Origin: an uncultured bacterium
GTDB lineage: Bacteria > Cyanobacteriota > Vampirovibrionia > Gastranaerophilales > Gastranaerophilaceae
Direction of reading: 5' to 3'
Assembly (NCBI GenBank): GCA_902801985.1
Contig: CADCKD010000005.1
Span: forward strand, 1-64,000
Length of the DNA: 64,000 nt
The stretch's first letter is position 1. Each line of letters starts with the position of its first letter. Positions 8,177-60,668 of the stretch are shown piece after piece. The position numbers were made by a program, and so were the translations under genes. The notes beneath the pieces were generated by a model that searched no databases, had not been told where the DNA came from, and saw only the letters and a program-made list of their open reading frames with translations.

Positions 8177-11149
8177 ATGAATAACGATGCAAAAAATTTA
8201 AATATAGATTTTTCTTTTAAAAAGAATGATGTTGATGAATTGTTTTTTAATTTAAGTGAAGATCCGGAAGGCTTTAAAAATAAGGATTTTCGCTATACAT
8301 TAAGTATGATTTATCAAATAGTTGAGGATGAGTTTGCGGGTGTATTTTTGAGCCCGAATTCTCCTACTCGTAATACTAATTTTTATTTAATTCACCAGAA
8401 TGGAAAATATTCATTTTTTGTCACCCCGACGAATAATTTTGAGTATTATTTGAAGTCAAAAGGTTCATTATTCAGATTCAGACCCGAAGAATTGGATGGG
8501 GTTAGGGGATATTTCCTTGCCTGGGATTTAGTTATGGATTATTTTGGCGGTTTTGGTAATGTTGTCGATCACGAAGCTTTGTCTGAAACATTTATTTACC
8601 TAAACAAATTAACCTACTTTGTTATGAAATTGATTGAAAAATTATATTTCATCCCAACAGTAAAACGTAATGGAGCAATGTTTAGGATTATTTATGAACC
8701 GATTATAAATAACACCCAAATGGCAAGAATAATAAATCAGTTTGAAGAATGTATGCCTCAAGATTTGTTTATAAAAGGCGAAAAACCTAAGAATTTTATT
8801 TATGAATTTATTTATGAATACTTAAATTATGTTCTCTATAAATTCTTAAATATAAAGATGTTCCGTTTTAAAGATGTTCAATCGGGTACATATTTGTTAA
8901 AAGACTTGGAAAGAAAATCTGTTCTCAAAGGTAGAGATTTGGCGGAAAGTTTTACCAACTGGTTTGACGAATTGTATTTGGGCAAATATGATGTAATACC
9001 TTTCTTCAAAATTGAAAAACAAGAAGACGAAGTGTTCAGGCTAAAAGTTTATATCAAAAACAGAAAAACCGATGAAGAAGTTCTTATTGATAAACTTTAT
9101 ACGGATGAAGAAGTTTTTGGCGCAAAATCAAACGATATAGCAAGAATTGTAGAAAAACAATTAAATTATGCTCTTCGTTATATGCCGGAATTAGAAGATC
9201 TTTTTGAAGATGAAGACAAATTGTATTTGGATTTGAATTTGAATGAGGTTTATCAAATCATTACAAAGACCGCATATTATCTCCAAAAAGCACAAATAGA
9301 AGTTGTTTTGCCTAAAGAACTTTCTAATATTGTTATCCCTCGTGCTTCTATAAATGCAAAAGTAAAAGAATCAAGAGCCGGGGATTTGGCAGATCTTATT
9401 AATAGTAATTCTTCATCAAAATTGTCTTTGGAAGATATATTAGATTTTTCTTACGAAGTTGCTATCGGGGATGACAAAATATCTTTAGAAGAATTCCAAA
9501 AACTTGTTGATACCAATGATGGTTTAATAAAATATAAAAATAAATATGTTCTTATTGATAAGAATGAAAGCAAAAAAATATTTGAACAAATTGCAAAAGC
9601 TAATTTTAAAACACTATCAAGAATGGAACTTATTCATGCATCGTTATCAAAACAATTAGATCAATATGATTTTGATTATGATGCCGCATTCGCAAGAGTA
9701 TTATCTGATTTTACAAAACCTGTGGATATAACACTTCCTCAAGATTTGAACGGCGAATTAAGACCATATCAAGAAGTTGGGCTCAAATGGCTGTGGACAA
9801 ATATTTCCAAAGGCTTTGGCGCTTGTATGGCTGATGATATGGGACTTGGGAAAACTATTCAGGTTATCAGTTTAATTCTAAAAATGAAAGAAGAAAAGAA
9901 ACTCAAAAAACCGGTTTTGGTTATCTGTCCGACAACTCTTATGGGTAACTGGATGAAAGAACTCCAAATGTTCGCTCCAAATTTAGATGCAGTTATTTAC
10001 CACGGTTCTGACAGACAGCTTGATGTTAAGCATGATGTTATTTTAACAACGTATGCAATTATGAGAATTGATGTTGAAGAGATTAAAAAACAAGCCTGGG
10101 GTATGATTATTGTTGACGAAGCTCAGAATATCAAAAACCCTGATACCGCTCAAACTCTTGCAATAAAAATGCTTAAGGCTGATGTTAAAATAGCTATGAC
10201 CGGTACTCCTGTTGAAAACAGGTTAACAGAACTTTGGAGTATATTTGATTTTATCAACAAAGGTTATCTGGGTTCTTTGCGTGATTTCCAAAAGAGTTAT
10301 GCAATTCCTATTGAAAGGTTTAAAGAACATTCAAGAGCTGACAAACTCAAGATGTCTATTTCACCTTTCGTCTTAAGACGTTTGAAGACCGATAAAAATG
10401 TCATTTCAGATTTACCTGAAAAAATGGTACTCAACGAATATTGCTACTTGTCCAAAGTTCAAGCTGTTTTATATGAAAAAACTCTTAATGAAATGATGAC
10501 AAAAATTAGCGGATTTACCGGTGTTAACAGACGCGGAAATATCTTCAAACTTATTACCGCGCTTAAACAAATTTGCAATCACCCTTATCAGTTCTTGAAA
10601 ACAGGCGAAATGGGCAGAGAACTTTCCGGTAAAATGGAAAAATGCCTCGATCTTGTTCAAAGTATTCTCGATAGAGGCGAAAAAACACTTATATTTACTC
10701 AATACAAAGAGATGGGTGATATTTTATGCAAAGTTATTGCTCAAGAATGCAATATTGAACCGCTGTTTTTTCACGGCAGCTTGACTGTTTCTCAAAGAGA
10801 AGAACTTATTGATAAATTCCAAAATCATGATGAGTCAAAGGTTATGATTTTATCCCTAAAAGCCGGTGGCACAGGGCTCAACCTTACACGTGCTACAAAT
10901 GTTATACATTATGATTTGTGGTGGAATCCTGCTGTTGAAGATCAAGCTACTGACCGTACTTACCGTATCGGACAAGATAAAAATGTTATGGTTCACAGAA
11001 TGATTACCCTTGGCACATTTGAAGAAAAGATTGACGAAATGCTTAAATCTAAAAAAGAACTTGCTGATATGGCAGTCTACGAAGGCGAAAAGATTATTAC
11101 AGAACTTTCAGACGAAGAAATCTACGAAATCTTTACTCTCTCCGCCTAG
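8177..11149 (+). CDS. SNF2-family helicase-like ATPase
   Basis: 990-aa Swi2/Snf2 double-stranded-DNA translocase. The N-terminal 480 residues match the bacterial SNF2-associated type of region, with low complexity of recognisable motifs. The ATPase core has Walker A DDMGLGKT (about 553), Walker B DEAQ (about 648), motif III TGTPVENR, and the C-terminal helicase domain with LKAGGTGLNL and TDRTYRIGQ (about 928). Such proteins remodel protein-DNA complexes; the bacterial HepA/RapA branch recycles RNA polymerase, but this one's target is unknown. The start has AAAGGGAAAATT upstream. The stop codon TAG is immediately followed by the first unit of a G-run repeat array. Confidence 0.92.
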   Translation: MNNDAKNLNIDFSFKKNDVDELFFNLSEDPEGFKNKDFRYTLSMIYQIVEDEFAGVFLSPNSPTRNTNFYLIHQNGKYSFFVTPTNNFEYYLKSKGSLFRFRPEELDGVRGYFLAWDLVMDYFGGFGNVVDHEALSETFIYLNKLTYFVMKLIEKLYFIPTVKRNGAMFRIIYEPIINNTQMARIINQFEECMPQDLFIKGEKPKNFIYEFIYEYLNYVLYKFLNIKMFRFKDVQSGTYLLKDLERKSVLKGRDLAESFTNWFDELYLGKYDVIPFFKIEKQEDEVFRLKVYIKNRKTDEEVLIDKLYTDEEVFGAKSNDIARIVEKQLNYALRYMPELEDLFEDEDKLYLDLNLNEVYQIITKTAYYLQKAQIEVVLPKELSNIVIPRASINAKVKESRAGDLADLINSNSSSKLSLEDILDFSYEVAIGDDKISLEEFQKLVDTNDGLIKYKNKYVLIDKNESKKIFEQIAKANFKTLSRMELIHASLSKQLDQYDFDYDAAFARVLSDFTKPVDITLPQDLNGELRPYQEVGLKWLWTNISKGFGACMADDMGLGKTIQVISLILKMKEEKKLKKPVLVICPTTLMGNWMKELQMFAPNLDAVIYHGSDRQLDVKHDVILTTYAIMRIDVEEIKKQAWGMIIVDEAQNIKNPDTAQTLAIKMLKADVKIAMTGTPVENRLTELWSIFDFINKGYLGSLRDFQKSYAIPIERFKEHSRADKLKMSISPFVLRRLKTDKNVISDLPEKMVLNEYCYLSKVQAVLYEKTLNEMMTKISGFTGVNRRGNIFKLITALKQICNHPYQFLKTGEMGRELSGKMEKCLDLVQSILDRGEKTLIFTQYKEMGDILCKVIAQECNIEPLFFHGSLTVSQREELIDKFQNHDESKVMILSLKAGGTGLNLTRATNVIHYDLWWNPAVEDQATDRTYRIGQDKNVMVHRMITLGTFEEKIDEMLKSKKELADMAVYEGEKIITELSDEEIYEIFTLSA

Positions 11150-11422
11150 GGGGTAAATGTTGTTTCCAATGGTTGCGCAGAGTTTCTTCATTATTGCGTG
11201 CCTAGGGGTAAATGTTGCTTTCAATGGTTGCGTGAGGGACTTAGGTTTTGCGCTAGGGGGGTAAATGTTGCTCCCAACGGTTGCACATATAACTCAATTT
11301 TTGCGCTAAGGGGGGGGTAAATGTTGTCTCCAACGGTTGCACATATAACTCAATTTTTGCGCAAGGGGGGTAAATGTTGTTTCCAATGGTTGCGCAAGGC
11401 TCTTCTATGGTTGTTCAGATTG
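11149..11422. repeat. G-run/GTAAAT tandem repeat array 1
   Basis: Five units, 53-56 nt each, begin near 11153, 11208, 11261, 11317 and 11371. Each opens with a G-run of varying length (5, 4, 6, 8 and 6), then GTAAATGTTG, a CCAAYGGTTGC core and a variable end closing in TTGCGC. The array begins at the stop codon of the SNF2 gene, and the TAG sits in the same CTAGGGG context that joins the internal units. Units 3 and 4 are nearly identical. Short frames across it break with the G-run length, so it is not coding. Confidence 0.85.
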
Positions 11423-11439
11423 GGGTAGATATATAATAA

Positions 11440-11582
11440 TGTACCCTCTCCTAGGGAGAGGGTTAGGGTGAGGGGCTAAATAATTATCTGTTCTAATACA
11501 AATCACTGAAAAATATTGTAAGATTCTTCGGACTTTGTCCTCAGAATGACGAATTTCTTCTCCCCTCGTAAGGGGAGAAAAT
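11440..11582. repeat. Palindromic intergenic repeats
   Basis: Three palindromic modules lie in a row: CCCTCTCCTAGGGAGAGGG followed by TTAGGGTGAGGGG (11444-11477), AAGATTCTTCGGACTTTGTC with CTCAGAATGACG (11520-11551), and CTCCCCTCGTAAGGGGAG (11561-11578). These resemble repeat types scattered through many bacterial genomes. Relatives occur here at 18118-18150 and 52112-52222. Confidence 0.65.
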
Positions 11583-16488: not shown

Positions 16489-17769
16489 ATGAAAAAAATC
16501 GCATTATTGGTCTTTATATGTATATTGTGTGCAGGATGTTTGAATGTGCAGGCGGTAGTTTTGACAAAAGATAATGTCTCAACGACCGCAAAAAGCTATG
16601 CGAGTATGCCTTACGGGAAATATCTGCGTTATTATTTGATTGATGAAGAAAAAATATTTATAACCTTTAAACAGTTATCTGAAGAGGATGACAAAAATTT
16701 TGAAAAAACATTATCTAAAGAAGAAAAACAAGATTATAAATATGTTAAAAAAGTGCAAAAAATTATTGATAAAGGCGATTGGAACGAAGTTTTTTATAAA
16801 TATGCAGATTTTTTCCCTGCCTATATTCAATATTATAATCTGTGTATTGCAAGAAGTAACTGGCATGAGGCATTGAGAGTTCTTGATAAAATAAAAAACA
16901 CTGATATGTATAACCAAATTTTTAGTGCTGATGTTGTTAATTTTGCTAAGGGGGAATTATATTTGAAAGCTAAACAGTATCAGAACGCCCTTGATTATTT
17001 TAAAACATTTGAAGGCTCCGGCAAAGATTCTGTATATGCATATATCGCAACTTGTTATTTCTATTTAGGGGAATATGATTCTGCAATATCTTATATGAAA
17101 AAAATTAAAAATATGACTTACGATAACAAGGAATTGATGTATTCAATTTATATCGAAAGTCAAAATTATACACAAGCGCATAAGTGGGCGCTAGAGCTTA
17201 TAAAAGCAAGATATAGTTATGCTAATTTTATGAAAGCTCAAGCCACTGCACCAAATGATGCTAAAAAACTTCAATACCTTTATCAAGCAAGAAGCTCTAC
17301 TCTAAATGAAAATGAGATTACTTCCGTAAATAAAATGATTGCTGAGCTCGAACAGCAAAAACTCGAAAAACAAATTTCAACTCTTAAACAGTTTATAAAG
17401 GTTCCAAGCTGGTCTGATATTGTGAGCCAGCTGCCTGAAAATATTTCTATAAATGAATTAACGAATAAGCAAGATGAGTTTTATAGAACTGCTAATGAAT
17501 ATCTAATAAAATATAGCGGGCAAAATTTAACTAATGCGTTTAATTCACTAAATCAAGATTTTGTAAATTATGTTCAAACAAAAAAAATTGAATATGCGCA
17601 AGAGCAACAACTAATTCAGCAGCAACAGTATGAAGCTCAACAACAGCAACTTATGTATATTAGACAGATGCAGGCGCAGCAGCAACAACTTGAACATTAC
17701 AGACGAATGCAAAGAATATATTATCTCTCTCGCCCGTATGATGATTTTACTATGTCTCCTTGGTTCTAG
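16489..17769 (+). CDS. Exported TPR-like protein with Gln-rich tail
   Basis: 426-aa protein with an N-terminal export signal (MKKIALLVFICILCAGC, then LNVQA). Cleavage may be after VQA by signal peptidase I; the CAGC could be a lipobox but has Cys rather than Leu at -3. The middle (about 85-270) shows helical repeats of TPR character (NALDYFKTFEGSGK, YIATCYFYLGEYDSA). The C-terminus (about 370-410) is very rich in glutamine, encoded by CAA/CAG runs. It is 3 nt after murJ and probably belongs to that operon, suggesting an envelope role. Its TAG stop is joined directly to repeat array 2. Confidence 0.75.
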   Translation: MKKIALLVFICILCAGCLNVQAVVLTKDNVSTTAKSYASMPYGKYLRYYLIDEEKIFITFKQLSEEDDKNFEKTLSKEEKQDYKYVKKVQKIIDKGDWNEVFYKYADFFPAYIQYYNLCIARSNWHEALRVLDKIKNTDMYNQIFSADVVNFAKGELYLKAKQYQNALDYFKTFEGSGKDSVYAYIATCYFYLGEYDSAISYMKKIKNMTYDNKELMYSIYIESQNYTQAHKWALELIKARYSYANFMKAQATAPNDAKKLQYLYQARSSTLNENEITSVNKMIAELEQQKLEKQISTLKQFIKVPSWSDIVSQLPENISINELTNKQDEFYRTANEYLIKYSGQNLTNAFNSLNQDFVNYVQTKKIEYAQEQQLIQQQQYEAQQQQLMYIRQMQAQQQQLEHYRRMQRIYYLSRPYDDFTMSPWF

Positions 17770-18053
17770 GGGGTAAATGTATATTACCAATGGTTGCGCG
17801 AGGTTCTTCTATGGTTGCGCAAAGGGGGGGGGTAAATATTGCTACCAACGGTTGCGCGAGGTTCTTCTATGGTTGCGCAAAAGGGGGGTAAATGTATTCA
17901 AGATCGGTTGTGTGTGTTGGGGTAAATGTTGTTTATGTTTTTGCGTATCTGTTTCCTCTGTCATTGCGAGCGGGGGTAAATGTTGTAGTCAATGATTGCG
18001 TAAAATTTATATGTCATTGCGAGCGGGAGCGAAGCAATCCAGCTGTTTTGAAT
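17767..18053. repeat. G-run/GTAAAT tandem repeat array 2
   Basis: Five units with G-runs of 5, 9, 6, 4 and 5 followed by GTAAAT. The first two end in GGTTGCGCAA; the last two end in GTCATTGCGAGC, so units fuse into the palindromic module GTCATTGCGAGC..GAAGCAATCC (18013-18040). The array starts at the TAG stop of the upstream gene. Frames that cross it give only short Gly/Val/Cys-rich peptides disrupted by G-run length, so no gene is called. Confidence 0.85.
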
Positions 18054-18229
18054 CCTTTTGTTCTACCTAGATTGCCGCGTCGTCACTACCGTTCCTCCTC
18101 GCAATGACGACCCTCCCCCACCCAGTCTCCCCCTTAGGGGAGAAGTAATGTCATACTTCATTCCTACTCCACCCCTCTTAATTTTCAGTGTAGGTAATAT
18201 CGTTAATAGAAAAATTATTATTTTAATGC
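18054..18229. repeat. Palindromic intergenic repeats after array 2
   Basis: An inverted half of the ATTGCGAG module occurs at 18092-18109 (CCTCCTCGCAATGACG), opposing the copy at 18013. A further CCCCCTTAGGGGAG palindrome lies at 18129-18145. The rest is AT-rich leader sequence before the next gene; nothing else was recognised. Confidence 0.55.
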
Positions 18230-51727: not shown

Positions 51728-52075
51728 CGGGGGTAAATGTATGTTACCGATGGTTGCGCATGGTTCTACACCGTTGCGCGGGGGGGGTAAATATTGCTAC
51801 CAACGGTTGCGCGAGGTTCTTCTATGGTTGCGCAAGGGGGGGATGTCGTAATCAATCTTGCGTATTTCCCCCATGTCATTGCGAGCGGGGGTAAATGTTG
51901 TTACTGATGGTTGCGCATGGTTCTACCTCCGTTGTGTGTGGGTAAATGTCGTTTATGTTTTTGCGTGTCTATTCTTCTGTCATTGCGAGCGGGAGCGAAG
52001 CAATCCAGCTGTTTATTAATATATTATCATATACCTTATAAGTAATCCTGTGCTTGATTTGCACTTATCAAACCT
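51728..52075. repeat. G-run/GTAAAT tandem repeat array 3 with common tail
   Basis: Units begin near 51728, 51780, 51833, 51886 and 51945; the third lacks GTAAAT but keeps the G-run. It ends in the module GTCATTGCGAGCGGGAGCGA..GCAATCCAGCTG (51979-52012), followed by a tail of about 65 nt (52013-52075) that matches the tail of array 4 at 60314-60378 with one visible difference. This array is not joined to a gene stop. Confidence 0.85.
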
Positions 52076-52107
52076 ATCCAACTTATCCAACTTATCAAAC
52101 CTATCGA
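52066..52107. repeat. 10-nt tandem repeats after array 3
   Basis: Four to five copies of a degenerate 10-mer (ACTTATCAAA / CCTATCCA.. types) in one direction, corresponding to one arm of the elements at 8029 and 23628. Confidence 0.65.
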
Positions 52108-52230
52108 TATACCCCACCCCCTACCCCCTCCCGCAAGGGGCGGGGATAAACCTTCCCCCACCTAACCTCCCCCCAAGGGGAGGAAAAATGCCTACGTCAT
52201 TCTGAGTTTAAGCGAAGGATCTTCTTTGTA
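52108..52230. repeat. Palindromic intergenic repeats
   Basis: CCCCTCCCGCAAGGGGCGGGG (52124-52144 region), CCTCCCCCCAAGGGGAGG, and a TCATTCTGAGTTTAAGCGAA module (52197-52220) like the inverted one at 11520-11551. It leads directly to the end of the minus-strand gene. Confidence 0.6.
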
Positions 52231-58265: not shown

Positions 58266-60032
58266 ATGGGTTTATCGTCAAGTCAAGCGAGATTATTATC
58301 TATAACAGCAAGATTAACTGACAATGAATACAAGAGTCAGCGAATTGCTAATGCAAAAATGAAATTATCAAACCTTGGTCTTGATGCTCAAAAAGATTAT
58401 GCGGATTCTTTAAATTCTCAAAAACTTGAATATACAAACTATAACAGTGCATCAAAGTTGACTCGTGAGAATTTGACTCCTGCAATTATATACGAATACC
58501 AACCATACAAAAATCAATATTCTTTGGTTAACACTGCGGGACAAGTTCTTGTTTCCCGTCTTGATGCCCAAAACTATAAAGAAACAAACAACCTTGCTGA
58601 ATTCTTAGACAGATATGGGTTGTTAGACAAAATCGCTTATCAAGTTACAGAATTGAATCCGGACTATTCAGTTTATTTAACCGAACTTGCACAATGGAAA
58701 ACCCAAGAACCTGATAAAAATAATCCTATATATTGGGATATAACTACAAGTTCAACAAATACAGCATTATATGATAAATTTAAAGCTGGTTCTGCCGGTT
58801 GTTTTAGTCACGCAACAATGGAAAACCCGTGGGAAACTTGTTATTTGCATGTTCTTGCTCATATGTTAGATTTAACACTTGATTCAAGCGGTAATCCTGT
58901 TCCGAGTGCATATCCAAAATCTTATGCAACAACTACGGGGAATTCTATAAGCATATCTATAAGTAAAATAGACGGTTCGCAAATTTATTCTGATGGTACG
59001 ACACCAGACATGCAAGATGTTTCAGATGCCATAAAAAATGGATATAGTGGAACAACTTTATATGCTTATGATCGTAGACTTGAAGGTGCATCTGATAATC
59101 TTATTGCAACATTGACGCCTCTTTATAACTCTTATTATATAGACGAAGTTTTAAAACTTCTTGGGCCTGAATATATACAAACAGGAACCGCAACGGATGT
59201 TCAAAAACTTTTAAGTAGTTATTATCTTGATAATGACGGAAACGTTCAATTAAAAACTCTTGAGCAAAAAATTGTCGATTTGTATTATGCTGTTGAAAAA
59301 CGCAGTGACTTGGGCATTAATTATGAATGCGTATTAGCGCCAATTCTATATTCTTTTGAAGATGATTTGAAAAATGTTTTAAGTATTACCAAAACATTCA
59401 ATGAGGACAAATTTAACAAAGATTATAATGAATGGCTTGATGCAAAACCCGTACCAGTTGAACAATATATAGATGTAACCAAAACAGAAATAGAAGTAAA
59501 TGACAAAGACAAATCTCAATGGTACACTAACCTTTGGTACAGAATGAACGGGTATGACGACCCCGCAAAAATTGAAACTAAAGAACGTATAAATCAATTC
59601 GATGAAGTTTCTTATTATCACTCAATGAATTTCTATGACAGAGAAAAAGAAACTTTCTCTAAAAACTATGCCATTCTTGATTCTAAACTTGTTACAAGCA
59701 AAGATTGGCTCTATGATGCCTTAAAAGAAGGTATTATAACTATGGAACGTGTTAATTCAGCCGATTCTTCCGAATTTAAAAAATTAAATTGGCAATCTAT
59801 TATTTACACAAACGCTACTGATATCGTTGAAACCGAAGATAATGAAAAAATTGCTCGCGCTGAAGCTAAATATCAAGCAGCAATGGAAACAATAGATATT
59901 AAAGATAAAAAATTCCAAATGGAATTGAAAAAACTTGATACAGAGCATAATGCACTATTAACAGAATATGATTCTATAAAATCCGCAATGGAAGCAAATA
60001 CTCAACGTTCATTCAAAGCATTCCAAGGCTAG
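58266..60032 (+). CDS. Large helical-ended protein of the SQARLL type
   Basis: 588-aa protein with no signal peptide. It begins MGLSSSQARLLSITARLTDN, a long amphipathic helix, and ends in a coiled-coil (FQMELKKLDTEHNALLTEYD) closing RSFKAFQG. The 400-residue centre is Tyr/Asp/Thr-rich and varied. N- and C-terminal helices around a large middle resemble the architecture of flagellin and hook-type filament proteins, but no known motif confirms that. I believe similar N- and C-terminal sequences recur in genomes of this lineage. AAAGGA lies 12 nt upstream. TAG stop is joined to repeat array 4. Confidence 0.72.
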   Translation: MGLSSSQARLLSITARLTDNEYKSQRIANAKMKLSNLGLDAQKDYADSLNSQKLEYTNYNSASKLTRENLTPAIIYEYQPYKNQYSLVNTAGQVLVSRLDAQNYKETNNLAEFLDRYGLLDKIAYQVTELNPDYSVYLTELAQWKTQEPDKNNPIYWDITTSSTNTALYDKFKAGSAGCFSHATMENPWETCYLHVLAHMLDLTLDSSGNPVPSAYPKSYATTTGNSISISISKIDGSQIYSDGTTPDMQDVSDAIKNGYSGTTLYAYDRRLEGASDNLIATLTPLYNSYYIDEVLKLLGPEYIQTGTATDVQKLLSSYYLDNDGNVQLKTLEQKIVDLYYAVEKRSDLGINYECVLAPILYSFEDDLKNVLSITKTFNEDKFNKDYNEWLDAKPVPVEQYIDVTKTEIEVNDKDKSQWYTNLWYRMNGYDDPAKIETKERINQFDEVSYYHSMNFYDREKETFSKNYAILDSKLVTSKDWLYDALKEGIITMERVNSADSSEFKKLNWQSIIYTNATDIVETEDNEKIARAEAKYQAAMETIDIKDKKFQMELKKLDTEHNALLTEYDSIKSAMEANTQRSFKAFQG

Positions 60033-60378
60033 TGGGTGGTAAATGTATGTTACCGATGGTTGCGCATGGTTCTACTATCGTTGTGCGGGGGTAAATGTCG
60101 TAGTCAATGATTGTGTAAAATTTATATGTCATTGCGAGCAGGGGTAAATGTTGTTTATGTTTTTGCGTATCTGTTCCTCTGTCATTGCGAGCGGGGGGTA
60201 AATATTGTTACTGATAGTTGCGTAAATTCCCCTGTCATTGCGAGCGGGGGGTAAATATTGTTACTGATAGTTGCGTAAATTCCCCTGTCATTGCGAGCGG
60301 GAGCGAAGCAATCCAGCTGTTTATTAATATATTATCATATACCTTATACGTAATCCTGTGCTTGATTTGCACTTATCC
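60030..60378. repeat. G-run/GTAAAT tandem repeat array 4 with common tail
   Basis: Units begin near 60034, 60088, 60142, 60195 and 60247, each about 53 nt. The last two units are exact copies (60195-60246 and 60247-60298). The array starts at the TAG of the upstream gene, ends in the GTCATTGCGAGCGGGAGCGA..GCAATCC palindrome, then a constant tail (60314-60378) shared with array 3. G-runs vary (3-6). Confidence 0.88.
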
Positions 60379-60422
60379 AACTTATCAAACCTATCCAACC
60401 TATCAAACCTATCAATATACTT
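60365..60422. repeat. 10-nt tandem repeats after array 4
   Basis: About five copies of a degenerate 10-mer (CCAACTTATC, AAACCTATCC, AACCTATCAA) in the same order as after array 3. It lies against the end of the minus-strand small gene. Confidence 0.7.
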
Positions 60423-60668
60423 TTATATTGATAAATCCAGTTTTTTACCTACGTTGTTGTCTGTTACGATATTTTTCATTTGATGAGGTGCAGCTTCAGT
60501 TCTTGTGTCTTGGAATGATAATCTGAATTGTCTTACTGCTGCATCGCTATTAATGGTGATACGTCCGGCATCCGGGCCGTAATCATTCCCCTGTATATGC
60601 CCGTATAACATATCAGGGTTGATTCCTATTTTGTTATTTATTTGTATACCGTTAATTTGTGTTGACAT
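60423..60668 (-). CDS. Small hypothetical protein
   Basis: 81-aa protein, MSTQINGIQINNKIGINPDM at the start, Asn/Ile-rich and without signal or membrane span. A small stretch DYGPDAGRITINSDAAVRQF suggests a compact fold. AAGGAT upstream of ATG. It lies 19 nt downstream of the 60688-61035 gene on the same strand, forming a two-gene unit convergent to the large helical protein. Function unknown; a partner of that protein is possible. Confidence 0.68.
   Translation of the reverse strand: MSTQINGIQINNKIGINPDMLYGHIQGNDYGPDAGRITINSDAAVRQFRLSFQDTRTEAAPHQMKNIVTDNNVGKKLDLSI

Follow-up and report, generated by a model that had tools for sequence, protein, structure and literature searches.

Comparison with Described Repeat Systems

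Mycobacterial interspersed repetitive units (MIRUs) are minisatellite-like tandem repeats that occur at many, mostly intergenic, loci with a copy number that varies between strains (PMC3635867). The arrays described here are similar in form, since they consist of head-to-tail intergenic units of tens of bp in 29 clusters, and their copy number also varies, in this case between species, each represented by one genome. MIRUs belong to unrelated organisms, and their sequence is not known to be related to that of the present units. They insert at overlapping stop and start codons, whereas the anchor here is a TAG followed by a G-run, and the units merge with one half of a palindrome.

In neisserial intergenic mosaic elements (NIMEs), which are built from dRS3 and RS, a short palindrome alternates with other repeats in intergenic arrays to form mosaic nests (PMC3898611, PMC9778887), and dRS3 is itself a CGTC-1 REP (PMC3733652). 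Mosaic nests of a palindrome and other repeats are likewise found in the intergenic arrays studied here. However, the RS of NIMEs is flanked by whole 20-bp palindromes, while the present units reach only the middle of the palindrome, the whole palindrome standing only at the end of the array; the dRS3 pattern ATTCCC(N8)GGGAAT also differs from the ATTGC..GCAAT found here.

CGTC-tagged REPs have a CGTC, TGTC or CCTC tag, a stem that starts with AT, a CCA tail, and a stem of 8–9 bp with a loop of 4–5, and head-to-head dimers predominate among them (PMC3733652). The palindrome module, TGTC-ATTGCGAGC...GCAAT-CCA, shares the tag, the AT stem start and the CCA tail, but its predicted stem is imperfect and only 5 + 2 bp long (z 0.17). 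As to dimers, the palindrome has an inverted partner behind it in array 2 and on contigs C3, C7, C13 (three copies) and C15, about half of the listed copies being without one; folding of the array 2 dimer gives a z of −2.5. The G-run units, in contrast to REP/BIME, have neither a conserved hairpin (RNAalifold) nor a Y1 transposase partner, and they differ from REPs with RAYT (GTAG type) on both of these points. A literature search by sequence letters gave chance matches only. The system works like a MIRU-like minisatellite family embedded in NIME-like nests; apart from general form, the unit matches no family with which it was compared. The units make up a new non-coding repeat family, which probably grows as units are duplicated locally and which is mixed with other repeats of known type.

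Extent and Layout of the Arrays

The window, i.e., the whole stretch of 64,000 nt that was analysed, is part of contig C5 of a draft genome (G000; 2.14 Mb, 74 contigs), and the gene ends given below are those of open reading frames, not of annotation. A sequence-only profile built from 49 units detected about 65 units of 51–58 bp in 29 clusters of G000, arranged head to tail with periods of 53–58. In the unit, about 28 nt form a conserved core (GGGGTAAATGTTGYTACCAATGGTTGCGCA), while the 3′ part, which has a second TTGCG, is weakly conserved. In the window, GGGTAAAT occurs 20 times against 2.8 expected (the maximum in 100 shuffles was 8), and 18 of the 20 occurrences lie inside four arrays. The arrays are confirmed as real. 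At two sites where the separately assembled relative RGIG4844 has orthologous arrays or units, the sequences make an assembly artefact unlikely. Some array lengths may be wrong, because several arrays lie at contig ends of the draft assembly. The preliminary description of this DNA had defined the units by a G-run and GTAAAT; the four arrays recognised in this way stand, although the third unit of array 3 has no GTAAAT (GGGGGGGATGTCG at 51838).

The arrays, with their modules and the stops at their left edges, lie on the + strand. Array 1 (11147–11426) starts at the TAG stop (11147–11149) of an SNF2-helicase ORF (8177–11149) and has five units and no GTCATTGCGAGC half. Array 2 (17767–18026) starts at the TAG stop (17767–17769) of the ORF at 16489–17769 and also has five units, the third of which is truncated; at its end stands a complete 96-nt inverted-repeat element (18013–18108) made of two palindromes head to head. 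Array 3 (51729–51993) has five units, with a palindrome at 51979–52009, a tail at 52010–52061 and 9-nt tandem repeats at 52063–52105.

The left edge of array 4 is the TAG stop (60030–60032) of a 588-aa ORF (58266–60032), and the array occupies the entire gap to the next ORF, which is convergent, 81 aa long and has its stop at 60423. Unit 1 (60033–60086) shares 94% identity with unit 1 of array 3, unit 2 (60087–60139) shares 94% with the last unit of array 2, and unit 3, or "unit e" (60141–60192), shares 98% with two other units, one in array 2 and the other at C12:2331. Units 4 (60193–60245) and 5 (60246–60298) are identical 53-mers, as had been pointed out before, and the idea of a recent expansion, which is also local, is supported. 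The 3′ end of unit 5 is the left half of the palindrome (60287–60317), which is REP-like with its TGTC tag, AT stem start and CCA tail. It is followed by a tail (60318–60371), composed of an AT-rich joint and a truncated left arm from a second family of palindromes, and by about 4.7 copies of a 9-nt tandem repeat (TATCAAACC; 60374–60415).

Unit Boundaries and Growth of the Arrays

Nearly every unit boundary is a G-run, with a length of 2–11. In many arrays of G000, the last unit ends inside the REP-like palindrome, and only this last unit is then followed by the 3′ half of the palindrome; since the 3′ boundary falls inside the palindrome, the units carry its 5′ half. On the palindrome side, the boundary comes after GAGCGG in G000, GAGGAGCG in G015 and ATGAGG in G002; the lineages also have different palindromes. 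According to lineage, the boundary G-runs sit at different positions in different palindromes, so that the same core captured different neighbours. Units are also more similar within an array than between arrays (0.68 vs. 0.54), mainly in the 3′ part, and the difference of 0.144 exceeds the maximum of 0.081 reached in 1000 label permutations, in which relatedness between arrays is ignored. Near-identical units are common to arrays 2, 3 and 4, where they stand in different order.

These arrays probably represent a non-coding repeat family, specific to one clade and dispersed between genes, whose growth proceeds by G-run-bounded duplication. In the simplest reading, slippage or unequal exchange involving the G-run that opens the core and another G-run nearby would give tandem copies of a core that lies beside a palindrome or another G-containing flank. 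The arrays would then expand, contract and swap units by recombination, and they would persist where they are harmless, such as directly behind stop codons or terminators and among nested repeats of other kinds. Encoded mobility is not required, and no such function was found. Such duplication would cover only the local growth of the arrays. If the arrays have any function, it is most likely a by-product at mRNA 3′ ends, similar to what has been proposed for REP/BIME.

Several known kinds of element were rejected. RNAalifold on 49 units gives no pairs and thus no consensus fold, and a single tRNA is the only Rfam match in the window, which argues against a structured RNA. When two unit sequences were folded alone, only the tRNA-side copy folded well (z −5.9). 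A CRISPR array was rejected as well, since the spacer-like 3′ parts are homologous between units and common to several arrays, so that they are not unique spacers. The Y1 transposase (PF01797) has no match in G000, G009 and G002, one weak partial match in G015, and is present in 21 of 46 congeners; its absence from three array-bearing genomes led to the rejection of a RAYT-driven REP.

Copy-Number States and Distribution among Relatives

Orthologous sites show different copy-number states. Exactly behind the TAG stop of prfA, there are four units in G000, five in G009, and one unit and a remnant in G002. No unit stands behind this stop in the other congeners with a readable gene end, and in most of these, ylxR (recognised by sequence, not annotation) follows prfA directly, within tens of bases. 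The gene of array 1 is followed by five units in G000 vs. one in G009, and the gene of array 4 has no units behind it in G009. The empty sites and differing unit numbers that the preliminary description had proposed to look for thus exist at orthologous sites as empty, one-, four- and five-unit states, the comparison being one between species with one genome per species. This gives a readable series, from empty site through single unit to array, of how intergenic repeats in bacteria arise and grow where no transposase is obvious, a series accompanied by the lineage-specific capture of palindrome halves. The prfA–ylxR junction (L186–L208) holds different repeats according to species, i.e., units in G000, G009 and G002, and GTCATTCTGAG-type palindromes in G006, G023 and G024.

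The profile found 65 unit matches in G000, 14 in G009, 10 in G015, 5 in G002 and 0–3 in each other congener, and none in the other 40 genera among 191 genomes sampled from the family (1 of 41 genera positive). Arrays have formed in G000, G009, G002 and G015, and in the sampled genomes the family is confined to one genus. By exact-pattern match, the array sequence of G009 is that of RGIG4844, a bacterium from roe deer rumen. A prfA tree groups G000, G009 and G002 (88/88), and a second-gene tree joins G002 and G015 (100/100); both groupings speak for the duplication account, while the absence of G000 from beside the pair in the second tree counts against it. From the distribution and the trees, the arrays look like a lineage-specific expansion. 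The unit pattern had no match in viral contigs, and a phage origin was rejected on this ground.

For G006, G022 and one of the two G021 places, the matches that were looked at consist of a related 35-nt palindrome (GGTAAATATTGC..GCAATACTTACC), which adjoins a tRNA gene, or copies of that gene's 5′ portion, on the 5′ side. Its sites are L096 1958–2340 (G000:C9), L220, L221, L223, L224 and L232, and partial tRNA-like fragments are repeated nearby.

Anchoring at Stop Codons and the 12-nt Motif

Eight of the 29 clusters start no more than 8 nt after the stop of a co-directional ORF, against 1.9% of random non-coding positions in the window; the binomial probability is about 4e-8, for 28 clusters, with the expectation taken from the window alone and independence assumed. 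The stop is TAG in seven of these eight cases, while TAG ends only 11 of the 54 ORFs in the window, three of the 11 being array genes. Three other clusters (C11:34.8k, C12:2.3k and C21) lie directly behind a terminator-like T-run, and some clusters are inside a larger dispersed repeat. Neutral intergenic persistence does not easily explain anchoring of this strength (8 of 29, 7 with TAG), which counts against the duplication account; no other feature of the system is as new or as poorly explained.

The first 12 nt of the arrays, TAGGGGTAAATR, are present in 42 of 46 congeners, in up to 42 copies against 0–2 for the reversed pattern, and therefore also in genomes without arrays. Example sites are L060, L064, L097, L125, L302 and L313. 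Among the 72 or 73 sampled sites, some of which are orthologues or duplicates of each other, 32 (44%) have an ORF that ends in frame at the TAG of the motif, against 0.6% for other TAGs, the ORF having at least 80 open codons in one count and at least 120 in another. The motif itself is tandem in G005, with periods of 12 and 10 (L302, L313), and at an apparently orthologous stop (KKW*), TAGGGG is found, depending on the genome, once, twice, or three times with a preceding TAAGGG (L285, L093, L272). In the orthologues of G012, the context of the stop is mostly another one. Seeding at Gly-stop codons (GGG TAA) was rejected, as many anchored genes have no terminal Gly.

The anchoring of TAGGGGTAAATR may reflect selection for tandem stops, a site-specific process or the decay of an old repeat. 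It is a tentative and rather doubtful idea that TAGGGGTAAATR is a genus-wide stop-anchored sequence, made or kept by a process at UAG stops, which in one clade nucleated the arrays that capture palindrome halves; the arrays would then be a class of repeats tied to translation stops. The dodecamer makes it testable why such sequences recur exactly at UAG stops across the genus.

The sharp left edge at TAG stops could also be that of a non-autonomous MITE-like or REP-like element with the left end TAG/GGGGTAAAT, whose transposase prefers stop codons, followed by tandem amplification. Empty sites in congeners and near-identical units at far-apart loci agree with such an element, as do the units found at one internal position of a larger dispersed repeat on C4, C7, C12, C13, C18, C33 and C34. 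However, it has no defined right end, no target-site duplication was seen, there are neither conserved inverted ends nor a conserved fold, and the three array-bearing genomes mentioned above have no Y1 transposase. One G010/G012 orthologue pair (L319), in which substitution rather than insertion seems to account for the difference at the stop-anchored motif, also speaks against the element, and a TA target-site duplication (TA-GGGG-TA) was rejected on the basis of this pair. Taken together, a mobile element of this kind is unlikely. The dispersed repeat (TTCGTTCAAACAATGCCCGC...CGTAAAGGTCGG, unit, ...GCGAACCGTTATTTAGGTTCGCCC) is seen at L068, L092 (first cluster), L105, L106, L117, L122 and L123; several copies are near contig ends, and five copies tested have no Rfam match.

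With a still lower probability, the arrays or TAGGGGTAAATR would be functional 3′-end elements under selection, with an effect on how translation terminates, on the 3′ ends of transcripts or on the coupling of operons. The excess of TAGGGGTAAATR over the reversed control in most of the 46 congeners and its share of in-frame stops are consistent with this, and the plain motif does give two in-frame stops (TAG GGG TAA), but the second of them is broken by longer G-runs. In addition, the number of copies varies among congeners between 0 and 42, the motif is present in few genes (in a 400-kb part of G012, 3 of 325 ORFs) and orthologues readily do without it, and no terminator-like site was found in the region of array 4. 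The family growing by G-run-bounded duplication is retained as the probable reading.

Independence of the Modules

The palindrome core GTCATTGCGAGCGGGAGCGA occurs exactly three times in the window (arrays 2, 3 and 4) against 0 expected. A stretch of 142 nt with the palindrome, the tail and the small repeats (51971–52112 and 60279–60420) shows 94% identity between arrays 3 and 4, which bears out the near-identical tail reported for them. The layout ascribed to both arrays is correct for the order of the modules; inside the arrays, the order of the units is shuffled, for example e-f in array 2 and f-e in array 4. The small repeats ACTTATCAA/CCTATCCA, thought to be of 10 nt, have a period of 9 in both arrays. 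As for the "constant tail", it is the junction of the palindrome with the left arm of the second palindrome family (GTCATTCTGA..TTGATTT), interrupted by the 9-mers.

Across the genome, the modules occur independently, an outcome that the preliminary description had itself named as speaking against its composite element. The palindrome is found without any unit at C4:36421, C12:32684 and C14:13884; units without the palindrome are found in array 1 and at C6:53.4k, C8:26.4k and C11:34.7k; and the 9-mers are alone at many places. A block of unit e, palindrome, tail and 9-mers does recur at 51.9, 60.2 and 66.4 kb of one contig, the array 4 copy having two extra units between unit e and the palindrome, and it is partly present at C12:2331. 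Because these three sites lie within 15 kb, a local block duplication in three copies is possible. Nevertheless, the proposal that a composite element copies or expands as one block is highly improbable, as every module also occurs alone or in other combinations and the unit order differs. The composite is not an obligate element, and the arrays are a repeat nest rather than one element copied whole. Beside the arrays, at 11440–11475 and 52112–52215 of the window, more palindrome families are nested (CCCTCTCC..GGGAGAGGG, CCCCTCCCGCAAGGGGCGGGG and GTCATTCTGAG..GAAGGATCTT).
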